A stretch of DNA of 41,447 nucleotides from Planctomycetota bacterium (GTDB lineage: Bacteria; Planctomycetota; Phycisphaerae; UBA1845; Fen-1342). A program made the position numbers and the translations under genes. Below, piece after piece: positions 22,378 through 33,499 of the stretch (the stretch's first letter is position 1; each line of letters starts with the position of its first letter). Under the pieces are notes generated by a model. That model made no database searches, was not told where the DNA came from, and worked only from the letters and a program-made list of their open reading frames with translations. Location: NCBI GenBank assembly GCA_022574815.1, contig JACZRH010000003.1:1-41447 (forward strand), given 5' to 3'.

Positions 22378-24444
22378 ATGAGATTCTTCAGAAAACCCGG
22401 CGGCGTACGCGGCGCCGTCGGCTCTTGTTGGACGACTTTGGCTGTGCTGGTTGTCGGAGCCGCGGCCGTGGACGCGCGTGCGGGTGGAACGCTTACGCCG
22501 AAAGGTGCGCCGGATCAGCCTATTCTGATTCTCGACCATCACGTCAACGTGGTCATCAACAATGGGTTCGCGCAAACCGAAGTCTCGCAGACGTTCTTCA
22601 ATCCCAATGACGCCGACCTCGAAGCCGTCTATTCCTTCCCGATCCCGCGCAGCGCCAGCCTGTCCGAGATGACGATCTACGCCGGCGAAGAGGAGATCCA
22701 CGGCGAGGTGCTGACCAAGGAAGAAGCCGAGAGAATCTACGGCGAGGAGAAAGACAAGGGCAACGACGCGGGGCTTGCACAAAAAAACAACTACCAGACG
22801 TTTGAGTTTCTTGTTTCGCCCGTTCGGGCGCAGGCCGAGATACGCCTGCGTTTCGTGTATTACCAACCGATTCAAATCGATACGGGCGTCGGGCGGTATC
22901 TCTATCCTCTGGAAGACGGCGGCACCGACGAAGCGGCGATTAGTTTCTGGACCACGAACGAAAAAGTCGAGGGAACCTTCTCGGTCGATCTGGAACTCAA
23001 GACCGCGCACCCCGTGAGTGACGTGCGCACGCCGGGATTCGAGGCCGCCGCGACGATCGATCAGATTGACGAGGGGCACTACCGGGTTCGCGTGGAGACC
23101 ACGGACACGCATCTCAACCGCGACTTCGTGTTTTACTACCGCTTGCGGGACGACCTGCCCGGGCGGGTCGAATTGCTGGCCTATCGCGCCGATCCGGACA
23201 AACCCGGCACGTTCATGTTGATTGTGACGCCGGGGCTCGACCTGCAACCGCTCACCGCCGGCGCGGACTACATTTTCGTGCTCGACGTCTCCGGCAGCAT
23301 GAGCGGCAAACTTCAGACACTGGGACACGGAGTCGGCAAAGCACTCGGGCGCCTTCAGCCTCAGGATCGGTTTCGCATCGTCACCTTTTGGACAAGCGCC
23401 CAGGAGGAGACCGGCGGCTGGGTGAACGCGACGCCCGAAAACGTGAGCCGCGCGATCCGCCGGGTGGAAGGGCTCAGCGTCAAGGGCGGCACGAACCTCT
23501 ATGCCGGAATCGAGACGGCTTTGAGAAAGCTTGACGACGATCGCGCGACGAGCATCATTCTGGTGACCGACGCGGTGACGAATACCGGCGTAATCGATCC
23601 CAAAGCCTTCCACGATTTGCTCAGCCGGTACGACGTGCGTTTCTTCGGTTTCCTGATGGGCAACAACGCCAATTGGCCGTTGATGCGTTTGATCTGCGAG
23701 ACCAGCGGTGGATTTTACGCGGGTGTTTCGAACGGCGACGACATCATCGGTCAAATCATACTGGCCAAGAGCAAGGTCGTTCACGAGTGTTTGCACGACG
23801 CCGAGCTTCGTATCGACGGTGTCAAGGTTTTCGACACTACCGACGGCGCAATCGGCAAGGTCTATCGCGGGCAGCAGCTTGTGCTGTTTGGACGGTACGC
23901 CGAGGGCGGCGCGGCGTCGCTGACCCTCAAGGCGCGCCTGACAGGCGAGGACAAGACCTACAAGACGACCTTCGAGTTTCCCGATCTCGATACCGACAAC
24001 CCCGAACTCGAACGCCTGTGGGCCATGAATCGCATCGAGGCGATCGAGATGGAGCGTCTGATCGGCTCGTTGCCATCTTCGGAGGCGGACGACGCGATCG
24101 AAAGTCTCGGCGTCGAATACCAATTGGTGACGGATTACACGTCGATGGTTGTCCTGTCCAACGCCGCGTTTGAAGAGCACGGCATCGAACGTCGCAATCA
24201 ACAACGGACCGCAATCGAGCACTCGGCGCAGGCACAGCGACGGTCACAGCCGGTTCGCAGCTACCGCGTGGACCGTTCGCAGCCCATGTTCCAGCACAAC
24301 GCACCGCGCCCTGGCGGCGGAACCGGCGGTGGGGCGATCGATCCGATTACCGGCAGCGTGGTCCTGGCGATCGGTGGTGTGGGACTATTGGCTCGACGCC
24401 GGAATCAGAAACAGGGCGAGCGGCAGGGCGGCGAGTCGTCGTGA
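22378..24444 (+). CDS. VIT/VWA domain surface protein with GlyGly-CTERM-like tail
   Basis: This 688-residue exported protein starts at ATG 22378, with GGAGG eight bases ahead and a signal peptide ending near ARAGG. Residues about 40-170 form a VIT (inter-alpha-trypsin inhibitor) domain: NNGFAQTEVSQTFFNPN, EAVYSFPIP and LTKEEAERIYGEEK. A von Willebrand A domain follows with a complete MIDAS: D303/S305/S307 in DVSGSMSG, T372 in GGTNLY and D398 in VTDAVTN. The C-terminus is a three-part sorting signal: a Gly-rich GGGTGGGAIDPITG stretch at 646-659, a short hydrophobic helix, then ARRRNQK. That form resembles GlyGly-CTERM tails, which rhombosortases cleave; the gene for one overlaps the stop codon by four bases. 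The role on the surface (adhesion, protein binding) is inferred from the domains. Confidence 0.85.
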   Translation: MRFFRKPGGVRGAVGSCWTTLAVLVVGAAAVDARAGGTLTPKGAPDQPILILDHHVNVVINNGFAQTEVSQTFFNPNDADLEAVYSFPIPRSASLSEMTIYAGEEEIHGEVLTKEEAERIYGEEKDKGNDAGLAQKNNYQTFEFLVSPVRAQAEIRLRFVYYQPIQIDTGVGRYLYPLEDGGTDEAAISFWTTNEKVEGTFSVDLELKTAHPVSDVRTPGFEAAATIDQIDEGHYRVRVETTDTHLNRDFVFYYRLRDDLPGRVELLAYRADPDKPGTFMLIVTPGLDLQPLTAGADYIFVLDVSGSMSGKLQTLGHGVGKALGRLQPQDRFRIVTFWTSAQEETGGWVNATPENVSRAIRRVEGLSVKGGTNLYAGIETALRKLDDDRATSIILVTDAVTNTGVIDPKAFHDLLSRYDVRFFGFLMGNNANWPLMRLICETSGGFYAGVSNGDDIIGQIILAKSKVVHECLHDAELRIDGVKVFDTTDGAIGKVYRGQQLVLFGRYAEGGAASLTLKARLTGEDKTYKTTFEFPDLDTDNPELERLWAMNRIEAIEMERLIGSLPSSEADDAIESLGVEYQLVTDYTSMVVLSNAAFEEHGIERRNQQRTAIEHSAQAQRRSQPVRSYRVDRSQPMFQHNAPRPGGGTGGGAIDPITGSVVLAIGGVGLLARRRNQKQGERQGGESS

Positions 24445-25106
24445 AGCGTTGGTTCCTTCGTGCAAGTCGAGCGGCGAAGCGCCTCGGGGGCGCTTCGTCG
24501 CTGCTTGCGATCGTCGCGCTGGTGGTATTCTTCTGGCCCGGGGCGACCGAAGGACTCGAATTCGACCGGGCGGCGATCGGCGCGGGTGAGCTCTGGCGAC
24601 TTCTGACGGGCCATTGGACGCACTGGAGCTTCGAGCATTTGTTCTGGGATGTGATCGTCCTCGTGGTGCTGGGTGTGCTCTGCGAAAGAACAACTCGCGG
24701 CGCGTTTGGCGCTACCGTCGTTCTGTCCGCGTTGGCGATATCAACGAGCGTGTGGTTCGCGCGCCCGGACCTCGCGTTTTACCGGGGACTGTCGGGCCTC
24801 GATTCGGCGCTGTTCGTGCTCTACGGCGTTCTCGTGATTCGGCGACATCGGCTTGCGGATTGGCGCGGCGTCGCGATGCTCGTCGCGCTCGCGGGGTTTG
24901 TCGGGAAGATCCTGTTCGAGTTCGTCACCGGCGACGCATTGTTGGTCGATGCGCAATCGGCGGGTTTCAGCGTTGTGATCGAGGCACATGTCGTCGGGGC
25001 CGCGATCGGGTTTCTGGCTGCATTTGTGGTGCAACGGAAACTGCCGGTCGGTGCCGACGTGGCCGTCTGCACAGGCGGGACGCCTGTGCCACAGCGTGCT
25101 ACTTGA
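24441..25106 (+). CDS. rrtA: Rhombosortase (rhomboid-family intramembrane sorting protease)
   Basis: This 221-residue multi-helix membrane protein shows the rhombosortase hallmarks. These are GELWRLLTGHWTHWSFEHL near residue 50, the catalytic serine S118 in FYRGLSGLDSALF, KILFEFVTG, and the catalytic histidine H183 in VVIEAHVVGAAIGF. Such proteases cut a GlyGly-CTERM-like tail and release or transfer the substrate. Its GTG start overlaps the stop of the VIT/VWA gene (GTGA), so the two are translationally coupled and that protein is the obvious substrate. The last ~13 residues (CTGGTPVPQ region) are encoded by a palindromic repeat, so the natural end was probably shorter. It overlaps the convergent peptidase gene by eight bases. 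The symbol is used for family membership only. Confidence 0.82.
   Translation: MKRWFLRASRAAKRLGGASSLLAIVALVVFFWPGATEGLEFDRAAIGAGELWRLLTGHWTHWSFEHLFWDVIVLVVLGVLCERTTRGAFGATVVLSALAISTSVWFARPDLAFYRGLSGLDSALFVLYGVLVIRRHRLADWRGVAMLVALAGFVGKILFEFVTGDALLVDAQSAGFSVVIEAHVVGAAIGFLAAFVVQRKLPVGADVAVCTGGTPVPQRAT
25069..25089. repeat. Palindromic repeat, GCACAGGCG type
   Basis: GCACAGGCG and its complement CGCCTGTGC flank three bases, followed by CACAG. The element is translated into the C-terminus of the rhombosortase as TGGTPVPQ. A related element is read in the same frame (TGATPVPQ) inside the MmgE/PrpD gene at 32831. It lies between two convergent genes and could also act as a terminator hairpin. Confidence 0.7.
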
Positions 25107-28532: not shown

Positions 28533-28538
28533 CATTGT

Positions 28539-28609
28539 GGCACAGGCTATCAGCCTGTGCCGGGCTGCCCAGGCGATCAGCCTCCACCGACACAGGCTAA
28601 TAGCCTGTG
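28539..28609. repeat. Tandem palindromic repeats (CACAGGC...GCCTGTG)
   Basis: There are three copies of one palindrome. 28539-28561 (GGCACAGGC/GCCTGTGCC) and 28591-28609 (CACAGGCTA/TAGCCTGTG) are intact. 28571-28583 (AGGC/GCCT) is a decayed middle copy. They lie right after the dehydrogenase stop and belong to the same family as 25069. They may stabilise or end the transcript. The rest of the gap to 28681 shows nothing else. Confidence 0.7.
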
Positions 28610-28680
28610 CTACACAAGCTGGTAGCTGTATCACTTAGTGTGATGGTCATCATGTGTCTTTTTTCAAGGCCGAGTCCGCT

Positions 28681-30858
28681 ATGCCCCAGACACTAATCGA
28701 AAAAACCGCCCAGCTTTTTGCCGTCGGGTTGCCCGCCAACCACGAGGTCCACGCCGGCGACTTTCTGACAATCCGTCCGGCGCACGTGATGACGCACGAC
28801 AACAGCGCCGCCGTGATCGGCAAGTTCCGCTCGGTCGGCGCCAAGCGCGTCTTCGATCCGAGCCAGCCGGTGTTCGCGCTCGACCACGACATTCAAAACA
28901 CGACTGTCGAAAACCTCGCCAAGTACGCCAGAATCCAGGCGTTCGCGAACGAGCACGGCATCGCTTTCTACCCCGCCGGACGCGGTATCGGGCACCAGGT
29001 CATGGTCGAGGAGGGTTTCGTCCTGCCCGGCACGTTCGTCGTCGGCTCCGACTCGCACTCGAACCTCTACGGCGCCCTCGGCGCGCTCGGCACGCCGGTG
29101 GTCCGCACCGACGCCGCCGCGATCTGGGCCACCGGGCAAACCTGGTGGCAGGTGCCCGACGTCGTGCGGGCCCGACTGACCGGCCGGCTCCAGCCCGGCG
29201 TCGTCGGCAAGGATGTGATTGTCGCGCTGTGCGGCGTGTTCAACCACGACGAGGTGCTCAACTGCTGCATCGAGTTCGACGGGCCGGGCGCCGCGAGCCT
29301 GAGCATCGAAGAGCGCCTGACCATCAGCAACATGACGACCGAATGGGGCGCGCTCGCCGGCGTGTTTCCGTATGACGAGCGAACCCGCGACTTTTTGCTG
29401 GAACGAGCTGAGGAATTCGAGCGGCGCGGCGACGCGAAGCCGCGGCTGACGCCCGAACGGATCGACCGACTCGAAGCCGACCTGCCGATCGCGGACGTCG
29501 ACGCTTGGTACGCCAAGGAGTTGGAGCTCGATCTGTCGGCCGTGACGCCCTTCGTTTCCGGCCCGAACACGGTCAAGACCATAGCCGCACTGCCGGAAAT
29601 CGAGCAACAAGACGTGCGGATCAACAAGGCGTATCTGATGAGCTGCGTCAACGCCCGACTGCAAGACTTCGAGTCGGCGGCCGAAGTGGTCCGCGGGCGT
29701 CACGTCGCCGCCGGCGTCGAGTTCTACATCGCTGCGGCGTCGGACGAGGTCGAGCGGCAAGCGCGCGCGCGCGGCTTCTGGCAGACGCTCGTGGACGCCG
29801 GTGCGATCGAGCTGCCGCCCGGCTGCGGGGCTTGCATCGGTCTCGGCCGCGGCACACTCGAAGCCGGCGAAGTCGGCATCTCGGCGACTAACCGCAACTT
29901 CAAGGGCCGCATGGGCTCGCGCGATGCGAGTGTCTATCTCGCGAGCCCCGCGGTTGTCGCGGCATCCGCCATCGCGGGGAAGATCGCCTCACCCCAATCC
30001 GTCGCGGCCTCCGATGCGCCGCCGCAATCCGAGCGCGAAGCGCTAGCGAGGGATTCCGCTCCGAACGCCGACCGGCTCCGCGACGCCGAAGAGCCCACGA
30101 TCTCGAAACCGTCCTCCAACTGCTACGAAGCCATGCGCCGCGCATCGTCCTTCCGCATGAATGAACCGCGTGCCAAGGACGGCCCCGCCCCTGTCCAAAT
30201 CCTCCCCGGCTTCCCCGAACGCATCGAAGGCGAGCTGCTCTTCCTCCCCGCCGACAACCTCGACACCGACGGCATCTACGGCAAGGACTACACCTACAAG
30301 GAAGGCATGACGCCCGAGGAGATGGCCGGCGTCGCGATGGAAAACTACGACCCGGCGTTCCAGCAAATCGCCCGCGAAGGCGACATCCTCGTCGGCGGCT
30401 ACAACTTCGGCACCGGCTCCTCGCGCGAGCAGGCCGCCACGGCGCTGAAATATCGCGGCCTGCAAATGATCATCGCGGGCTCGTTCTCGCAAACCTACAA
30501 GCGTAACGCCTTCAACAACGGCTACATCTGCATCGAATGCCCGGCGTTGGTGGACGAACTGAAGGACGCATTCGAGAATGACAAGACCCTGACGATCCGC
30601 AGCGGCGCGACGGCAACAGTTGACTTCACCCGTTCTGAGGTTTCCGTAGCACCCGCGCCCGAGCCGCGGGCTTCAGCCCGCGCGGTGTCGCCTGAAATGG
30701 AAAGCACGAGCATTCTCAAGGATTCACGACCGCGCGGACTGAAGTCCGCGGCTCTTCGATACCCCATCGTCCCGCTCGGTGAAGTCGCCCAGGAACTGAT
30801 CGTCAAGGGCGGCTTCGCGTCGGTGATTCGCGAGCAACTTGCGGCTAGGACGTCGTGA
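28681..30858 (+). CDS. Aconitase-family hydratase, large and swivel domains fused
   Basis: This 725-residue [4Fe-4S] hydro-lyase moves a hydroxyl group between carbons of a tricarboxylate. Cluster ligands are C322 (SCVNAR), C382 and C385 (GCGACIG). RPAHVMTHDNS and GSDSHSNLYGALGALG are also typical. The large domain ends near 440. The swivel domain starts near 495, with FLPADNLDTDGIYGKDYTYK and FGTGSSREQAATALKYRG, then AGSFSQTYKRNAFNNG. The wording is closest to homoaconitases and LeuC+LeuD fusions. Two palindromic elements are translated within it: one in the linker (about 449-458) and one in a C-terminal loop (about 661-691), just before YPIVPLGEVAQELI. I chose ATG 28681; GTG 28654 also fits. 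It is preceded by the dehydrogenase gene, so the pair likely serves one pathway. Confidence 0.85.
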   Translation: MPQTLIEKTAQLFAVGLPANHEVHAGDFLTIRPAHVMTHDNSAAVIGKFRSVGAKRVFDPSQPVFALDHDIQNTTVENLAKYARIQAFANEHGIAFYPAGRGIGHQVMVEEGFVLPGTFVVGSDSHSNLYGALGALGTPVVRTDAAAIWATGQTWWQVPDVVRARLTGRLQPGVVGKDVIVALCGVFNHDEVLNCCIEFDGPGAASLSIEERLTISNMTTEWGALAGVFPYDERTRDFLLERAEEFERRGDAKPRLTPERIDRLEADLPIADVDAWYAKELELDLSAVTPFVSGPNTVKTIAALPEIEQQDVRINKAYLMSCVNARLQDFESAAEVVRGRHVAAGVEFYIAAASDEVERQARARGFWQTLVDAGAIELPPGCGACIGLGRGTLEAGEVGISATNRNFKGRMGSRDASVYLASPAVVAASAIAGKIASPQSVAASDAPPQSEREALARDSAPNADRLRDAEEPTISKPSSNCYEAMRRASSFRMNEPRAKDGPAPVQILPGFPERIEGELLFLPADNLDTDGIYGKDYTYKEGMTPEEMAGVAMENYDPAFQQIAREGDILVGGYNFGTGSSREQAATALKYRGLQMIIAGSFSQTYKRNAFNNGYICIECPALVDELKDAFENDKTLTIRSGATATVDFTRSEVSVAPAPEPRASARAVSPEMESTSILKDSRPRGLKSAALRYPIVPLGEVAQELIVKGGFASVIREQLAARTS
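30026..30055. repeat. Palindromic element inside the hydratase gene (linker)
   Basis: Outer arms AATCC/GGATT enclose AGCGC-GAA-GCGCT. It is translated in frame as part of the region between the large and swivel domains, where the protein is poorly conserved. I take it as an inserted repeat, but with lower certainty than the two longer in-frame elements. Confidence 0.45.
30661..30754. repeat. Palindromic element inside the hydratase gene (C-terminal loop)
   Basis: Arms 30661-30686 and 30729-30754 are 26-base reverse complements with two mismatches. Each arm is itself palindromic around CGGGCTTCAGCCCG or its variant. The 94-base unit is read through in frame and adds about 31 residues between the conserved DFTRSEV and YPIVPLGEVAQELI of the swivel domain. 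Confidence 0.75.
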
Positions 30859-30868
30859 ACTTGTGCAC

Positions 30869-30941
30869 GTGCCACTGCTCTGTGAGCAGTGTTTTGGGCG
30901 GCCGGACCCTCTCGCGAACACTGCTCACAGAGCAGTGGCAC
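30869..30941. repeat. Perfect 25-base inverted repeat
   Basis: Arms 30869-30893 and 30917-30941 (GTGCCACTGCTCTGTGAGCA...) are perfect reverse complements around a 23-base loop. It starts ten bases after the hydratase stop and ends 26 bases before the next gene. It could attenuate the transcript between them, but there is no T-run after it. Confidence 0.8.
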
Positions 30942-30967
30942 CCGGCCACATAGGAAGGGAGCCTAGG

Positions 30968-31246
30968 TTGGCGGCCCGGCGGAGAACAAACTGGAAGCGG
31001 TTGTATGAGCCCGTTCGCGAGACGCTCAATCGGGAGTGGGACCCGATCGGCGTGCATCCTGAAGTCGAGGATGAGTACGACACGTACGCACTGAGAATCA
31101 CGCGTCTGTTGTTCGAAGGCGCGGACGCACACAAAATCGCCCGGCAACTGACCGACTTTGAGAGGGTGAGCATGGGTTATGAGCAGGCAACGGCGGACGG
31201 CAATCGGGCAATCGCCGAGAGGCTCGTTGGATTGACCACGAAATGA
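30968..31246 (+). CDS. Small conserved-looking protein, unknown function
   Basis: This protein has 92 residues. The core is REWDPIGV, then EDEYDTYALRITRLLFEGAD, then KIARQLTDFE. I recall a widespread small bacterial family with the same 'WDPIGV...DEYD.Y...I..LL..GA' layout and no known function. The start TTG 30968 is supported by GGGAG six bases upstream. The frame is open further up only because the inverted repeat at 30869 reads through. It is likely cytoplasmic and lies between the hydratase and HD-like genes. Confidence 0.6.
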   Translation: MAARRRTNWKRLYEPVRETLNREWDPIGVHPEVEDEYDTYALRITRLLFEGADAHKIARQLTDFERVSMGYEQATADGNRAIAERLVGLTTK

Positions 31247-31293
31247 CTCGGTACCGAGACCTGTAGGGTGTGCCATGCCCGCCGTTGAGTCTC

Positions 31294-31349
31294 GTAGGGT
31301 GGGCACCGCCCACCAGAATATGGCGAGTGGTGGGCCGTGCCCACCCTAC
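31294..31349. repeat. Inverted repeat, GTAGGGTGGGCAC type
   Basis: Arms 31294-31315 and 31328-31349 (GTAGGGTGGGCACCGCCCACCA and complement) are 22 bases with one mismatch and a 12-base loop. A partial third copy (GTAGGGTGTGCCATGCCCGCC) starts at 31263. I know this as a common dispersed repeat in several bacterial phyla. It sits 15 bases before the HD-like gene. Confidence 0.75.
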
Positions 31350-31363
31350 TTGGGAAGCGAAAA

Positions 31364-31912
31364 ATGCGTGAAGAAATCGAAGCGATTTTCCCTGAAATCG
31401 ATCAAATCTCCGACCCCACCCTCCGCCAGAAGGTTACCAACGTCTGGAGCGACTCCCTAACCACCGGCGGCTGGACCATCGAGGAGCTCAAGCAGGTCCC
31501 CTTCACGCTCCTCGCCGGCGACACGGACATCCGCTTCCTCGAACACGTCCGCACCTGCTGCCGCATGTCGATCGCGATCTACGACGTGCTCAAGGACGCC
31601 TACGGCGACCGCGTCCCGCTGAATCGCGACCACCTGATCGCCGGCTCGCTGCTCGCCGACGTCGGCAAGCCGATCGAATACGTCAAGGGTCCCGATGGCA
31701 AGCCTGCCAAGGGCACGCGCGGCGACATGCTCCGGCACCCCTTCAGCGGCGTCGGCCTGTGCTGGAAACACGGCCTGCCCGACGAGGTCATGCACATCGT
31801 CGCGACGCACAGCAAGGAAGGCGACCACGTCCAGCGCACGCTCGAGTCGATCATCTTTCATCATGCGGATTTCGTCGATTTCGACATCGCGTGCGCGCTT
31901 GGACGGCGGTAA
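31364..31912 (+). CDS. HD-domain-like phosphohydrolase lacking the HD histidine
   Basis: This is a 182-residue helical cytoplasmic protein. The order FLEHVRTC, then LIAGSLLADVGKPIEY, then LRHPFSGVGLCWKHGLP, then HIVATHSKEG, then FHHADFVDFD, follows the metal-dependent HD superfamily (H...HD...H...H...D). At the central pair, however, residues 98-99 are Ala-Asp, so the second metal ligand is missing. Either the family uses other ligands or it is catalytically weak. ATG 31364 follows GGAAG with good spacing; the open frame upstream comes from the repeat at 31294. It is placed between tricarboxylate-type metabolic genes, with no obvious functional link. Confidence 0.65.
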   Translation: MREEIEAIFPEIDQISDPTLRQKVTNVWSDSLTTGGWTIEELKQVPFTLLAGDTDIRFLEHVRTCCRMSIAIYDVLKDAYGDRVPLNRDHLIAGSLLADVGKPIEYVKGPDGKPAKGTRGDMLRHPFSGVGLCWKHGLPDEVMHIVATHSKEGDHVQRTLESIIFHHADFVDFDIACALGRR

Positions 31913-32038
31913 CCGCAGAGGCGCGGAGAGCGCGGAGGAGCCGGGAGATAGTCACCGTGAATTCGGCGCGCTTGGCGCCTTGGTCGCTAAACAGTAAGGA
32001 TCCTCGGCGTCCTTTGCACTCTCCGCGTCTCTGCGGTT
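31910..32038. repeat. Inverted repeat, CCGCAGAGGCGCGGAGAG type
   Basis: Arms 31910-31929 and 32019-32038 are 20-base reverse complements with one mismatch. The similarity continues weakly inward around a central stretch of about 90 bases. This is another dispersed repeat class known from many bacterial genomes. It begins at the last codon of the HD-like gene and ends 18 bases before the MmgE/PrpD start. Confidence 0.7.
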
Positions 32039-32056
32039 CAAACAGGAGAAAGGGAA

Positions 32057-33499
32057 ATGCCGACAATCACGGAACAAATCGCCCGCTGGGCCTGCGACCT
32101 GAAATACGAACACCTCACGCCCGACGCCATCGAAGCCGCCAAGCGGTTTCTGTTCGACACCGTCGGCTGCGCGCTCGGCGGCTATCAAGTCCACGACGTC
32201 AAAATGTTCCTTGAGCACTACCGTGAATTCGGCCAGCCCGGCCCATGCACCGTCATCGGTGCCGGCGACCGGATGAACCCGGTCGCCGCCGCGATGCTCA
32301 ACGCGCTGATGGTCCGCGCCATGGACTACAACGACATCTACTGGAAGCAGGACCCCGCGCATCCCTCCGACCTGATCTCCGCCCCGCTCGCGATCGCCGA
32401 GTGGAAGAAACTGACCGGCAAGGACCTCATTCTCGCCATCGTCCTGGGCTACGACATCACCATGCGGCTCTGCCACATCGCCGTCCCCGGTATTCGCGAG
32501 CGCGGCTGGCACCACGCCACGCTGATGGCCTTCGCTGCGCCGCTCGTCGCCGGCAAGCTGCTCGGCCTGACGCCGGAGCAGATGCAACACGCGATCGGCA
32601 TCGCGAGCTGCCACTGCTTCACGCTCGGCTGCGCCGTCGCCGGCAAGCTGACCATGATGAAGAACACGGTCAGCCCGATGTCCACCCGCGACGGCGTCGA
32701 GGCCGCATTGCTCGCTCAGCGCGGCTACACCGGTCCCGAAGGCGTCATCGAGGGCAAGGAGGGGCTGGAGCACTGCCTCGGCGAGGCCTGGGATTATTCG
32801 TGGATCACTGACAAACTACCGACCTCAAATTGTGGCACCGGCGTCTCGCCGGTGAGAGACACAGGCGCGACGCCTGTGCCACAAGAGGGTCACGGCTGGA
32901 TGATCACCCAGTGCGGCATGAAGTCCTACCCGATCGAGGCCCTGATGCACTCGCCCGTCTCGGCCACGCTTCATATCCTGCGGGAGCAACATCTCGAGGC
33001 GGAAGACGTCAAGGAAGTACGAATCGAATCCATCGCCCGCGCTGCCGACATCCTCAGCGACCCGGCCAAGTACGACCCGCAATCCAAGGAGTCCGCCGAC
33101 CACAGCCTGCCCTACTGCATCGCCGCGGCGGTCGCCGAGGGCCGCGTGACGCCGCTGGAGTTCAAGGAGGACAAGCTCTGGGACGCCCGGCTGCGCGCGC
33201 AGATGCAAAAGGTGAAGGTCGTCGCGAACGAAGAGTTCGAAAGGGCGTTTCCCGCGAAGCAATGCACCCGGGTAACGATCACGACCAACGACGGCCGCCA
33301 ATTCACGCACGCGCTCGACGTCCCAAAGGGCGACCCGCGCGATCCGATGACGATCGACGAGCTGGAGATCAAATTCAACGCTCTCGCCGAACCGGTAATG
33401 AGCGAAGGCCGGCTGAGCGATCTCAAATCTGCCATCTTCGATCTCGAGCATCTCGCCGACGCCGGCAACCTGATGTCGCTGACCGTTGCGGACCTGTAG
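32057..33499 (+). CDS. MmgE/PrpD family dehydratase or decarboxylase
   Basis: This 480-residue cytoplasmic protein belongs to the family of 2-methylcitrate dehydratase (PrpD) and cis-aconitate decarboxylase. Family stretches are AAKRFLFDTVGCALGG near residue 34, MDYNDIYW, HPSDLISAPLAIAEW, GYDITMRLC, GWHHATLMAFAAP, KLTMMKN and KSYPIEALMHSP. These cover the N-terminal helical domain and the active-site Asp/His/Lys positions. About 18 residues at 259-276 (CGTGVSPVRDTGATPVPQ) come from a palindromic element read in frame, just before the conserved WMITQCGMKSYPIE. It starts at ATG 32057, after AAAGGGAA. With the aconitase-family and decarboxylating dehydrogenase genes upstream it suggests tricarboxylate chemistry, for example a methylcitrate-like branch. 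No citrate synthase-type gene is in view. Confidence 0.87.
   Translation: MPTITEQIARWACDLKYEHLTPDAIEAAKRFLFDTVGCALGGYQVHDVKMFLEHYREFGQPGPCTVIGAGDRMNPVAAAMLNALMVRAMDYNDIYWKQDPAHPSDLISAPLAIAEWKKLTGKDLILAIVLGYDITMRLCHIAVPGIRERGWHHATLMAFAAPLVAGKLLGLTPEQMQHAIGIASCHCFTLGCAVAGKLTMMKNTVSPMSTRDGVEAALLAQRGYTGPEGVIEGKEGLEHCLGEAWDYSWITDKLPTSNCGTGVSPVRDTGATPVPQEGHGWMITQCGMKSYPIEALMHSPVSATLHILREQHLEAEDVKEVRIESIARAADILSDPAKYDPQSKESADHSLPYCIAAAVAEGRVTPLEFKEDKLWDARLRAQMQKVKVVANEEFERAFPAKQCTRVTITTNDGRQFTHALDVPKGDPRDPMTIDELEIKFNALAEPVMSEGRLSDLKSAIFDLEHLADAGNLMSLTVADL
32831..32883. repeat. Composite palindromic element inside the MmgE/PrpD gene
   Basis: Outer arms TGTGGCA and TGCCACA enclose two hairpins, CACCGGCG...CGCCGGTG and ACAGGCG...CGCCTGT. 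The 53-base element can fold as a cruciform. It is translated as GTGVSPVRDTGATPVPQ without a stop. A degenerate relative (CTGGCGTCTCGCCGG) lies just past the stop codon near 33503. Confidence 0.8.

Follow-up and report, generated by a model that had tools for sequence, protein, structure and literature searches.

The window analysed here, a stretch of 41,447 nucleotides (nt) from a Planctomycetota bacterium, is contig C27 of a 4.48-Mb metagenome-assembled genome (MAG) that is 84% complete and has its nearest named matches in Phycisphaerae (Planctomycetota), and it holds on its forward strand two genes for metabolic enzymes that are each lengthened in frame by palindromic DNA. The first gene (28681 to 30858) encodes a homoaconitase-like hydratase of the aconitase family with 725 residues (PF00330, E 2.6e-103; PF00694, E 3.1e-17; TIGR00139, 786 bits, which is over its cut-off), and the second (32057 to 33499) encodes an MmgE/PrpD family protein, here called PrpD, with 480 residues (PF03972, E 5.1e-73; PF19305, E 4.9e-41). 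AlphaFold models of the two proteins were good overall, with predicted local distance difference test (pLDDT) values of 81 and 87, respectively, and the PrpD model had a fold similar to cis-aconitate decarboxylase and PrpD structures. The inserts in both enzymes are inverted pairs of dispersed repeat families; they keep the frame and lie in disordered loops. Such in-frame repetitive extragenic palindromic (REP) sequences are already known; the unexpected finding is that, in relatives of this bacterium, the REP-associated tyrosine transposase (RAYT) itself lies in frame inside host enzymes, in a manner reminiscent of inteins.

The hydratase insert contains two arms of 26 nt that are 92% complementary and spaced 42 nt apart (30661 to 30754), which the preliminary description of this DNA, made from the letters alone, had called a 94-base double palindrome. 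Its RNA fold had an energy of −62 kcal/mol with a z-score of −6.0, equalled by none of 200 shuffled sequences, and the loop encoded around it has 50 residues in the window protein versus 17 in all 29 of the aligned homologues; the complementary arms, the fold and the absence of the extra loop from these homologues confirmed the element. The insert as a whole extends approximately from 30650 to 30756 (+ strand) and adds 33 residues between strands E653-657 and E692-695; in the model, residues 664 to 683 are coil with pLDDT below 50 between two strands. The first arm (30661 to 30686, + strand) is a forward copy of the family A element GAGCCGCGGGCTTCAGCCCGCG, read as EPRASARAV, and the second (30729 to 30754, − strand) is its inverted partner, read as PRGLKSAA, with 2 mismatches to the pattern. 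Family A had 44 matches in the genome versus 0 for the reversed pattern that served as control, and the reading EPRASAR...PRGLKSAA is common to the hydratase insert and to a family A pair inside the IleRS of genome G006.

In PrpD the complementary arms lie at 32830 to 32854 and 32860 to 32884, with an RNA fold z-score of −6.3. The PrpD proteins of relatives align contiguously to window residues 1-254 and 278-480 without a gap, and therefore the insert comprises exactly 23 codons (32819 to 32887, + strand; residues 255-277), which are missing in close relatives. The 53-base element proposed earlier at 32831 to 32883 was thus borne out by its arms, its fold and the 23-codon gap in relatives. Residues 258 to 278 are coil with pLDDT below 50 in the model. 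A family C element, GTGGCACCGGCGTCTCGCCGGTG (32832 to 32854, + strand; recognised by pattern search and copy alignment), is read as CGTGVSPV, and its C-type inverted partner, GTGGCACAGGCGTCGCGCCTGTG (32860 to 32882, − strand; recognised by the complementary arm and pattern search), is read as TGATPVPQ. The closest PrpD homologue carries a different, non-palindromic extension of 12 residues at the insert site, and the site is therefore permissive. A further C-type copy, read as TGGTPVPQ, lies on the − strand at about 25065-25094, at the C-terminus of the open reading frame (ORF) 24441-25106, which was first labelled a rhombosortase and whose product ends ...AVCTGGTPVPQRAT-stop. This copy is present and shares its frame with TGATPVPQ of PrpD, as had been proposed; the further idea that the family uses a single frame did not hold, since another copy reads HRRDAGAT. 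The preliminary description had also held that the inserts keep the frame and occupy loops or linkers of metabolic enzymes, and that they are not ancestral residues found in all relatives. Both points stood: the frame is open throughout, the loops are disordered in both models, and homologues lack the residues.

A shorter segment of the hydratase (30026 to 30055, + strand), also thought to be palindromic, is a single in-frame copy of the family D element AATCCGAGCGCGAAGCGCTAGCGAGGGATT. Its position, its membership in a repeat family (48 genome copies versus 0 in the control) and its place in the inter-domain linker were upheld; as a palindrome or hairpin it was rejected, with a fold z-score of +0.64 and 141 of 200 shuffles equally stable. 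The linker between the two aconitase domains has 61 residues in the window protein versus 18-37 in homologues, and the element accounts for ten of them; much of the linker around it may be ancestral or drifted loop sequence.

The repeat families were found by k-mer counting; a de novo search for perfect hairpins of at least 8 bp was uninformative, as REP stems have mismatches and masked contigs consist of runs of N. Besides families A and D, the latter with inverted pairs recurring at a spacing of about 55 nt, the genome contains families B and C (CACAGGC/CACCGGC), with 69 matches versus 11 in the control, and family E (GTAGGGTGGGCANNGCCCACC), with 29 versus 3. In aligned copies of families B (GTRG), C (GTGG) and E (GTAG), a four-base tag at the 5' end is conserved and followed by a stem, and there is no conservation 3' of the stem. 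REPs are characterised by a palindrome of 20-40 bp that carries an unpaired four-base tag (GTAG) at only one end, a trait found in B, C and E, only partly in A, and not in D. Two other REP traits are also present, namely many copies mostly outside genes, often in inverted pairs (29-69 matches per family versus 0-11 in controls), and bracketing of a RAYT by the same repeat, seen for E in this genome and for A, B (both exact) and C-like repeats in relatives. Seven Y1-transposase matches occur in this genome, one of which, on contig C120, is bracketed by family E. We rejected the RAYTs of this genome as the source of families A-D, as in this incomplete assembly no nearby copies other than those of family E were found.

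Other enzymes of this genome also serve as in-frame hosts: AlaRS, IleRS (with family D, A and C copies), ValRS, UvrA, an S9 peptidase and a permease. In sampled contigs, which were partly chosen since the pattern search pointed to them, 118 of 131 element clusters were without coding flanks on both sides. Among the 13 with coding potential on both sides, 10 were in frame and open (binomial p 0.0016 versus one third), a value that is indicative only, since the coding score includes a few weak calls. Forward copies of family A read EPRASAR in 9 of 12 cases, and + copies of family C in coding frames read GTGV.PV in 32 of 32, the latter not being independent because many of these copies are tandem. 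A family E GTAG REP also lies in frame within a TIR-AAA ATPase protein (L151, G000:C277).

When the IleRS of the window genome was used as a query, its family-mates were found to have IleRS frames of up to 1647 residues, in which a RAYT domain, with repeat-encoded peptides such as GTGVSPV on either side, forms part of the additional sequence; in G015 and G010 the fused gene was the only strong IleRS match among the matches listed. A search for the Pfam domain Y1_Tnp in 27 genomes of the family gave many matches within frames of 631-1686 residues, and Pfam showed that Y1_Tnp lies between host domains in IleRS, ValRS, LeuRS, AlaRS (two copies), PurH, GcvP, an SNF2 helicase and an Eco57I-type methylase. 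In two frames (L394 and L395) the Y1_Tnp scores of 20.4 and 20.3 were slightly below the cut-off of 23; the NCBIfam model REP_Tyr_transpos gave 66-81 bits (cut-off 80) inside L395, PurH L386 and GcvP L389, with PurH, IleRS and GcvP as the hosts. The RAYT embedded in RarA (L462) was supported by profile A2 (E 8.6e-58) and by host domains. Two long frames with a Y1 match whose host was unassigned (L390 and L398) were left out of the case count; L396 ends at a contig edge and L397 contains a run of N. Three of the frames are of note: an AlaRS frame of 1686 residues (L391, G010:C11) has two RAYT domains at two sites, and RAYTs are embedded in a PLD/SNF2 helicase and in an Eco57I-type restriction-modification enzyme (L464 and L471, respectively).

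Several embedded RAYTs are bracketed by repeats like those of the window. Family A copies, of which two match the window consensus exactly, lie on both sides of the RAYT in the G013 PurH; in the G010 PurH family B takes this place, with one exact copy. In PurH these A and B repeats are convergent, with mainly forward copies before the RAYT and inverted copies after it. C-like repeats bracket the IleRS RAYTs, and GTAG-tagged repeats bracket that of GcvP in L392. The HUH and Tyr residues do not vary among ten embedded RAYTs, and the first HUH histidine is missing from one PurH copy (L387).

The sites that hold the unit in some genomes lack it in others. PurH is 557-597 residues long without the unit (577 in the window genome) and 801-1131 with it, and between the same two conserved PurH motifs there are 13-35 residues if the site is empty and 237-353 if it is occupied; IleRS has two such sites, and for each of them there are genomes with and genomes without an insertion. 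The literature on tnpA-REP gives no evidence of its mobility and treats the gene as domesticated. When a site lacks the unit in one genome and its orthologue in the next holds a full REP-RAYT unit, as seen in several genes, comparative genomics supplies the evidence that had been missing. PurH of the window genome (L437, G000:C153:20325-22031) has a 35-residue linker, LWHRFATGE...TGATTPAV, exactly where relatives hold the RAYT, and this linker is possibly a RAYT remnant.

To survey the scale, 298 genomes of the class were searched with a profile of ten embedded RAYTs. There were 101 matches with an E value of 1e-19 or lower, of which 64 lay in frames of at least 600 residues, compared with none of the 49 that ranked next; ten of the counted cases had gone into the profile itself, and long frames alone are no proof in GC-rich genomes. 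Hosts were recognised, by eye and with Pfam, for most of the long frames inspected, and outside the class long RAYT-containing frames were a minority. Pairwise differences between RAYTs at the three codon positions were about 0.25, 0.19 and 0.55, and therefore indicate constraint at the protein level, that is, purifying selection. In the RAYT tree a single clade, with several hosts, contains most embedded RAYTs, and RAYTs from the same host gene tend to cluster; old insertions passed on together with the host gene are therefore likely, and so perhaps is movement between sites.

We consider it highly probable that the window inserts are REP-type miniature mobile elements spread by RAYT (TnpA-REP), of which the autonomous unit occupies the same niche in relatives. 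RAYTs, as HUH single-strand transposases, would have spread REPs, mostly as inverted pairs like those of REP doublets (REPINs) or bacterial interspersed mosaic elements (BIMEs), through Planctomycetota genomes, most likely by copying or moving REPs and REP-RAYT units as single-stranded DNA, which fits the biochemistry (PMC8266576). Palindromic GC-rich elements would have few stop codons in most frames, and an insert could therefore survive as a translated, disordered linker if it lies in a surface loop and its length is a multiple of three. Purifying selection on the host would then have retained only insertions that are in frame, open and in loops. In the autonomous REP-RAYT-REP unit the predicted transposase frame continues that of the host in IleRS, ValRS, LeuRS, AlaRS, PurH and GcvP. 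From the sequences we infer that RAYTs transposed the elements, that each fused frame is translated into a single chimeric protein and that the insertions are neutral for the host enzyme. We somewhat favour the further idea that a clade of Phycisphaerae RAYTs behaves like inteins that do not splice, being produced as a domain within conserved housekeeping enzymes, with the REP pairs of the window as its non-autonomous or remnant form.

It is quite unlikely that the inserts are instead removed before the enzyme works, by an intron, an intein or ribosomal bypassing, so that the protein is not lengthened. There are strong hairpins within the coding sequence, and the hosts of embedded RAYTs are the kind of enzyme that inteins favour, both of which count for removal. 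However, no catalytic intron RNA (group I or II) gave an Rfam match above the gathering score in 11 loci, no intein splicing (Hint) domain was among the Pfam matches of 18 fused ORFs, and the inserts are stop-free with the frame kept throughout, neither of which splicing would call for. The embedded RAYTs occupy the same niche as inteins, that of a mobile gene which encodes a nuclease and resides in frame within essential, conserved enzymes; unlike inteins, they have no detected splicing domain, carry an HUH nuclease instead of a homing endonuclease, and are flanked by REPs.

The preliminary description had likened the inserts to Rickettsia palindromic elements (RPEs), and a family of that type, with its own spreading mechanism independent of RAYT, would yield the same outcome of in-frame palindromes in unrelated metabolic enzymes (PMC10969869), which is indeed what we found. 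We regard this origin as very improbable. RPEs are about 150 bp long and end in the tag CGTC, and CGTC repeats have no associated transposase (PMC3733652), whereas the tags here are GTAG or GTGG in B, C and E and GAGC in A, none of them CGTC, and A, B, C-like and E repeats flank RAYTs; the likeness to RPEs was therefore not borne out. That the added residues are loop sequence of the usual kind, ancestral or drifted, and palindromic by chance, is barely credible, for although loop length at these places varies in some homologues, near-identical sequence recurs 44-69 times in the genome versus 0-11 in controls and the hydratase loop is fixed at 17 residues in the 29 aligned homologues; this reading is already refuted for the pairs in the hydratase (family A) and in PrpD.

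Several observations weigh against spread by RAYT. Family A is conserved on both sides and has the foot GAGC, not GTAG; family D alone forms no hairpin; and no cognate RAYT of families A-D turned up in this incomplete MAG. For the window inserts, neither a target-site duplication nor exact empty-site DNA was established. Two homologues (L305 and L309) have longer hydratase loops, and, with the PrpD homologue that has its own extension (L017), they indicate that loops were already variable in some relatives, so that part of the loop growth may not be insertional.

Among known systems the inserts come nearest to REPs. Systems of REP, BIME or REPIN with RAYT, termed REPtrons (PMC3733652; PMC8266576; PMC6006769), share with those described here the one-sided tetranucleotide tag and stem (in B, C and E), the inverted pairs, the dozens of copies mostly outside genes and the RAYT bracketed by the same repeats; they differ in that here the tags include GTGG and possibly GAGC, several families occur side by side, and the transposase gene is in frame inside host enzymes. 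In 2013, Di Nocera et al. described in-frame REPs from many species, with most GTAG cases in O. terrae (Verrucomicrobia) and hosts that include uvrA and tRNA synthetases (PMC3733652); the in-frame behaviour as such was therefore already known, as a trait of REPs rather than of RPEs, and the novelty by phylum claimed at first was too strong. Their intragenic GTAG and CGTC REPs (in O. terrae, Thauera, Xanthomonas and R. conorii) are likewise in-frame pairs, add 20-30 residues to unrelated proteins and were suggested to lie in flexible loops. Here, in contrast, there are new members of host phyla and new families, and RAYT inside a host frame is not described in the accessible part of that report. 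Nor did a search of open-access full text find any account of a host reading frame that contains a RAYT. Class 3 TnpA-Y1 of Planctomycetes (PMC6006769) resemble, by eye only, the RAYTs of ValRS and AlaRS in the NHVH pattern and the type A RAYTs of PurH in Y....Q; unlike these, they were reported as separate genes with CnGA feet, and the survey discarded unexpectedly long fusion proteins (PMC6006769). If the fused frames are translated, essential enzymes would carry a mid-chain nuclease domain with conserved motifs, which would bear on the persistence of mobile DNA, on the gain of linkers and domains by proteins, and on the long synthetases of the class. For annotation, many very long synthetase or PurH models in the class contain a transposase.

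Further repeats lie outside the two genes. An inverted pair of family B (GTRG/CACAGGC.TATCA.GCCTGTG) lies between genes at 28536 to 28614, of the same family that flanks the RAYT inside PurH of G010, and an intergenic pair of canonical GTAG REPs lies at 31294 to 31349 and belongs to family E, which also brackets the RAYT on contig C120. Directly downstream of the hydratase gene, positions 30869-30941 hold a perfect inverted repeat of 25 nt (GTGCCACTGCTCTGTGAGCAGTGTT; fold z-score −7.9), a putative further REP-like family; upstream of the PrpD gene, positions 31911-32038 hold an imperfect one of 48 nt (CCGCAGAGGCGCGGAGAGCGCGGAGG...), and at 803-872 there are short repeats of GGGTTCAG type in inverted pairs. 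An Rfam search of the window gave zero matches. The hydratase and PrpD-like genes (28681-33499; loci L019-L096) are close neighbours in many phyla, among them Planctomycetota, Acidobacteriota and Gemmatimonadota, and this proximity suggests a conserved pathway pair.

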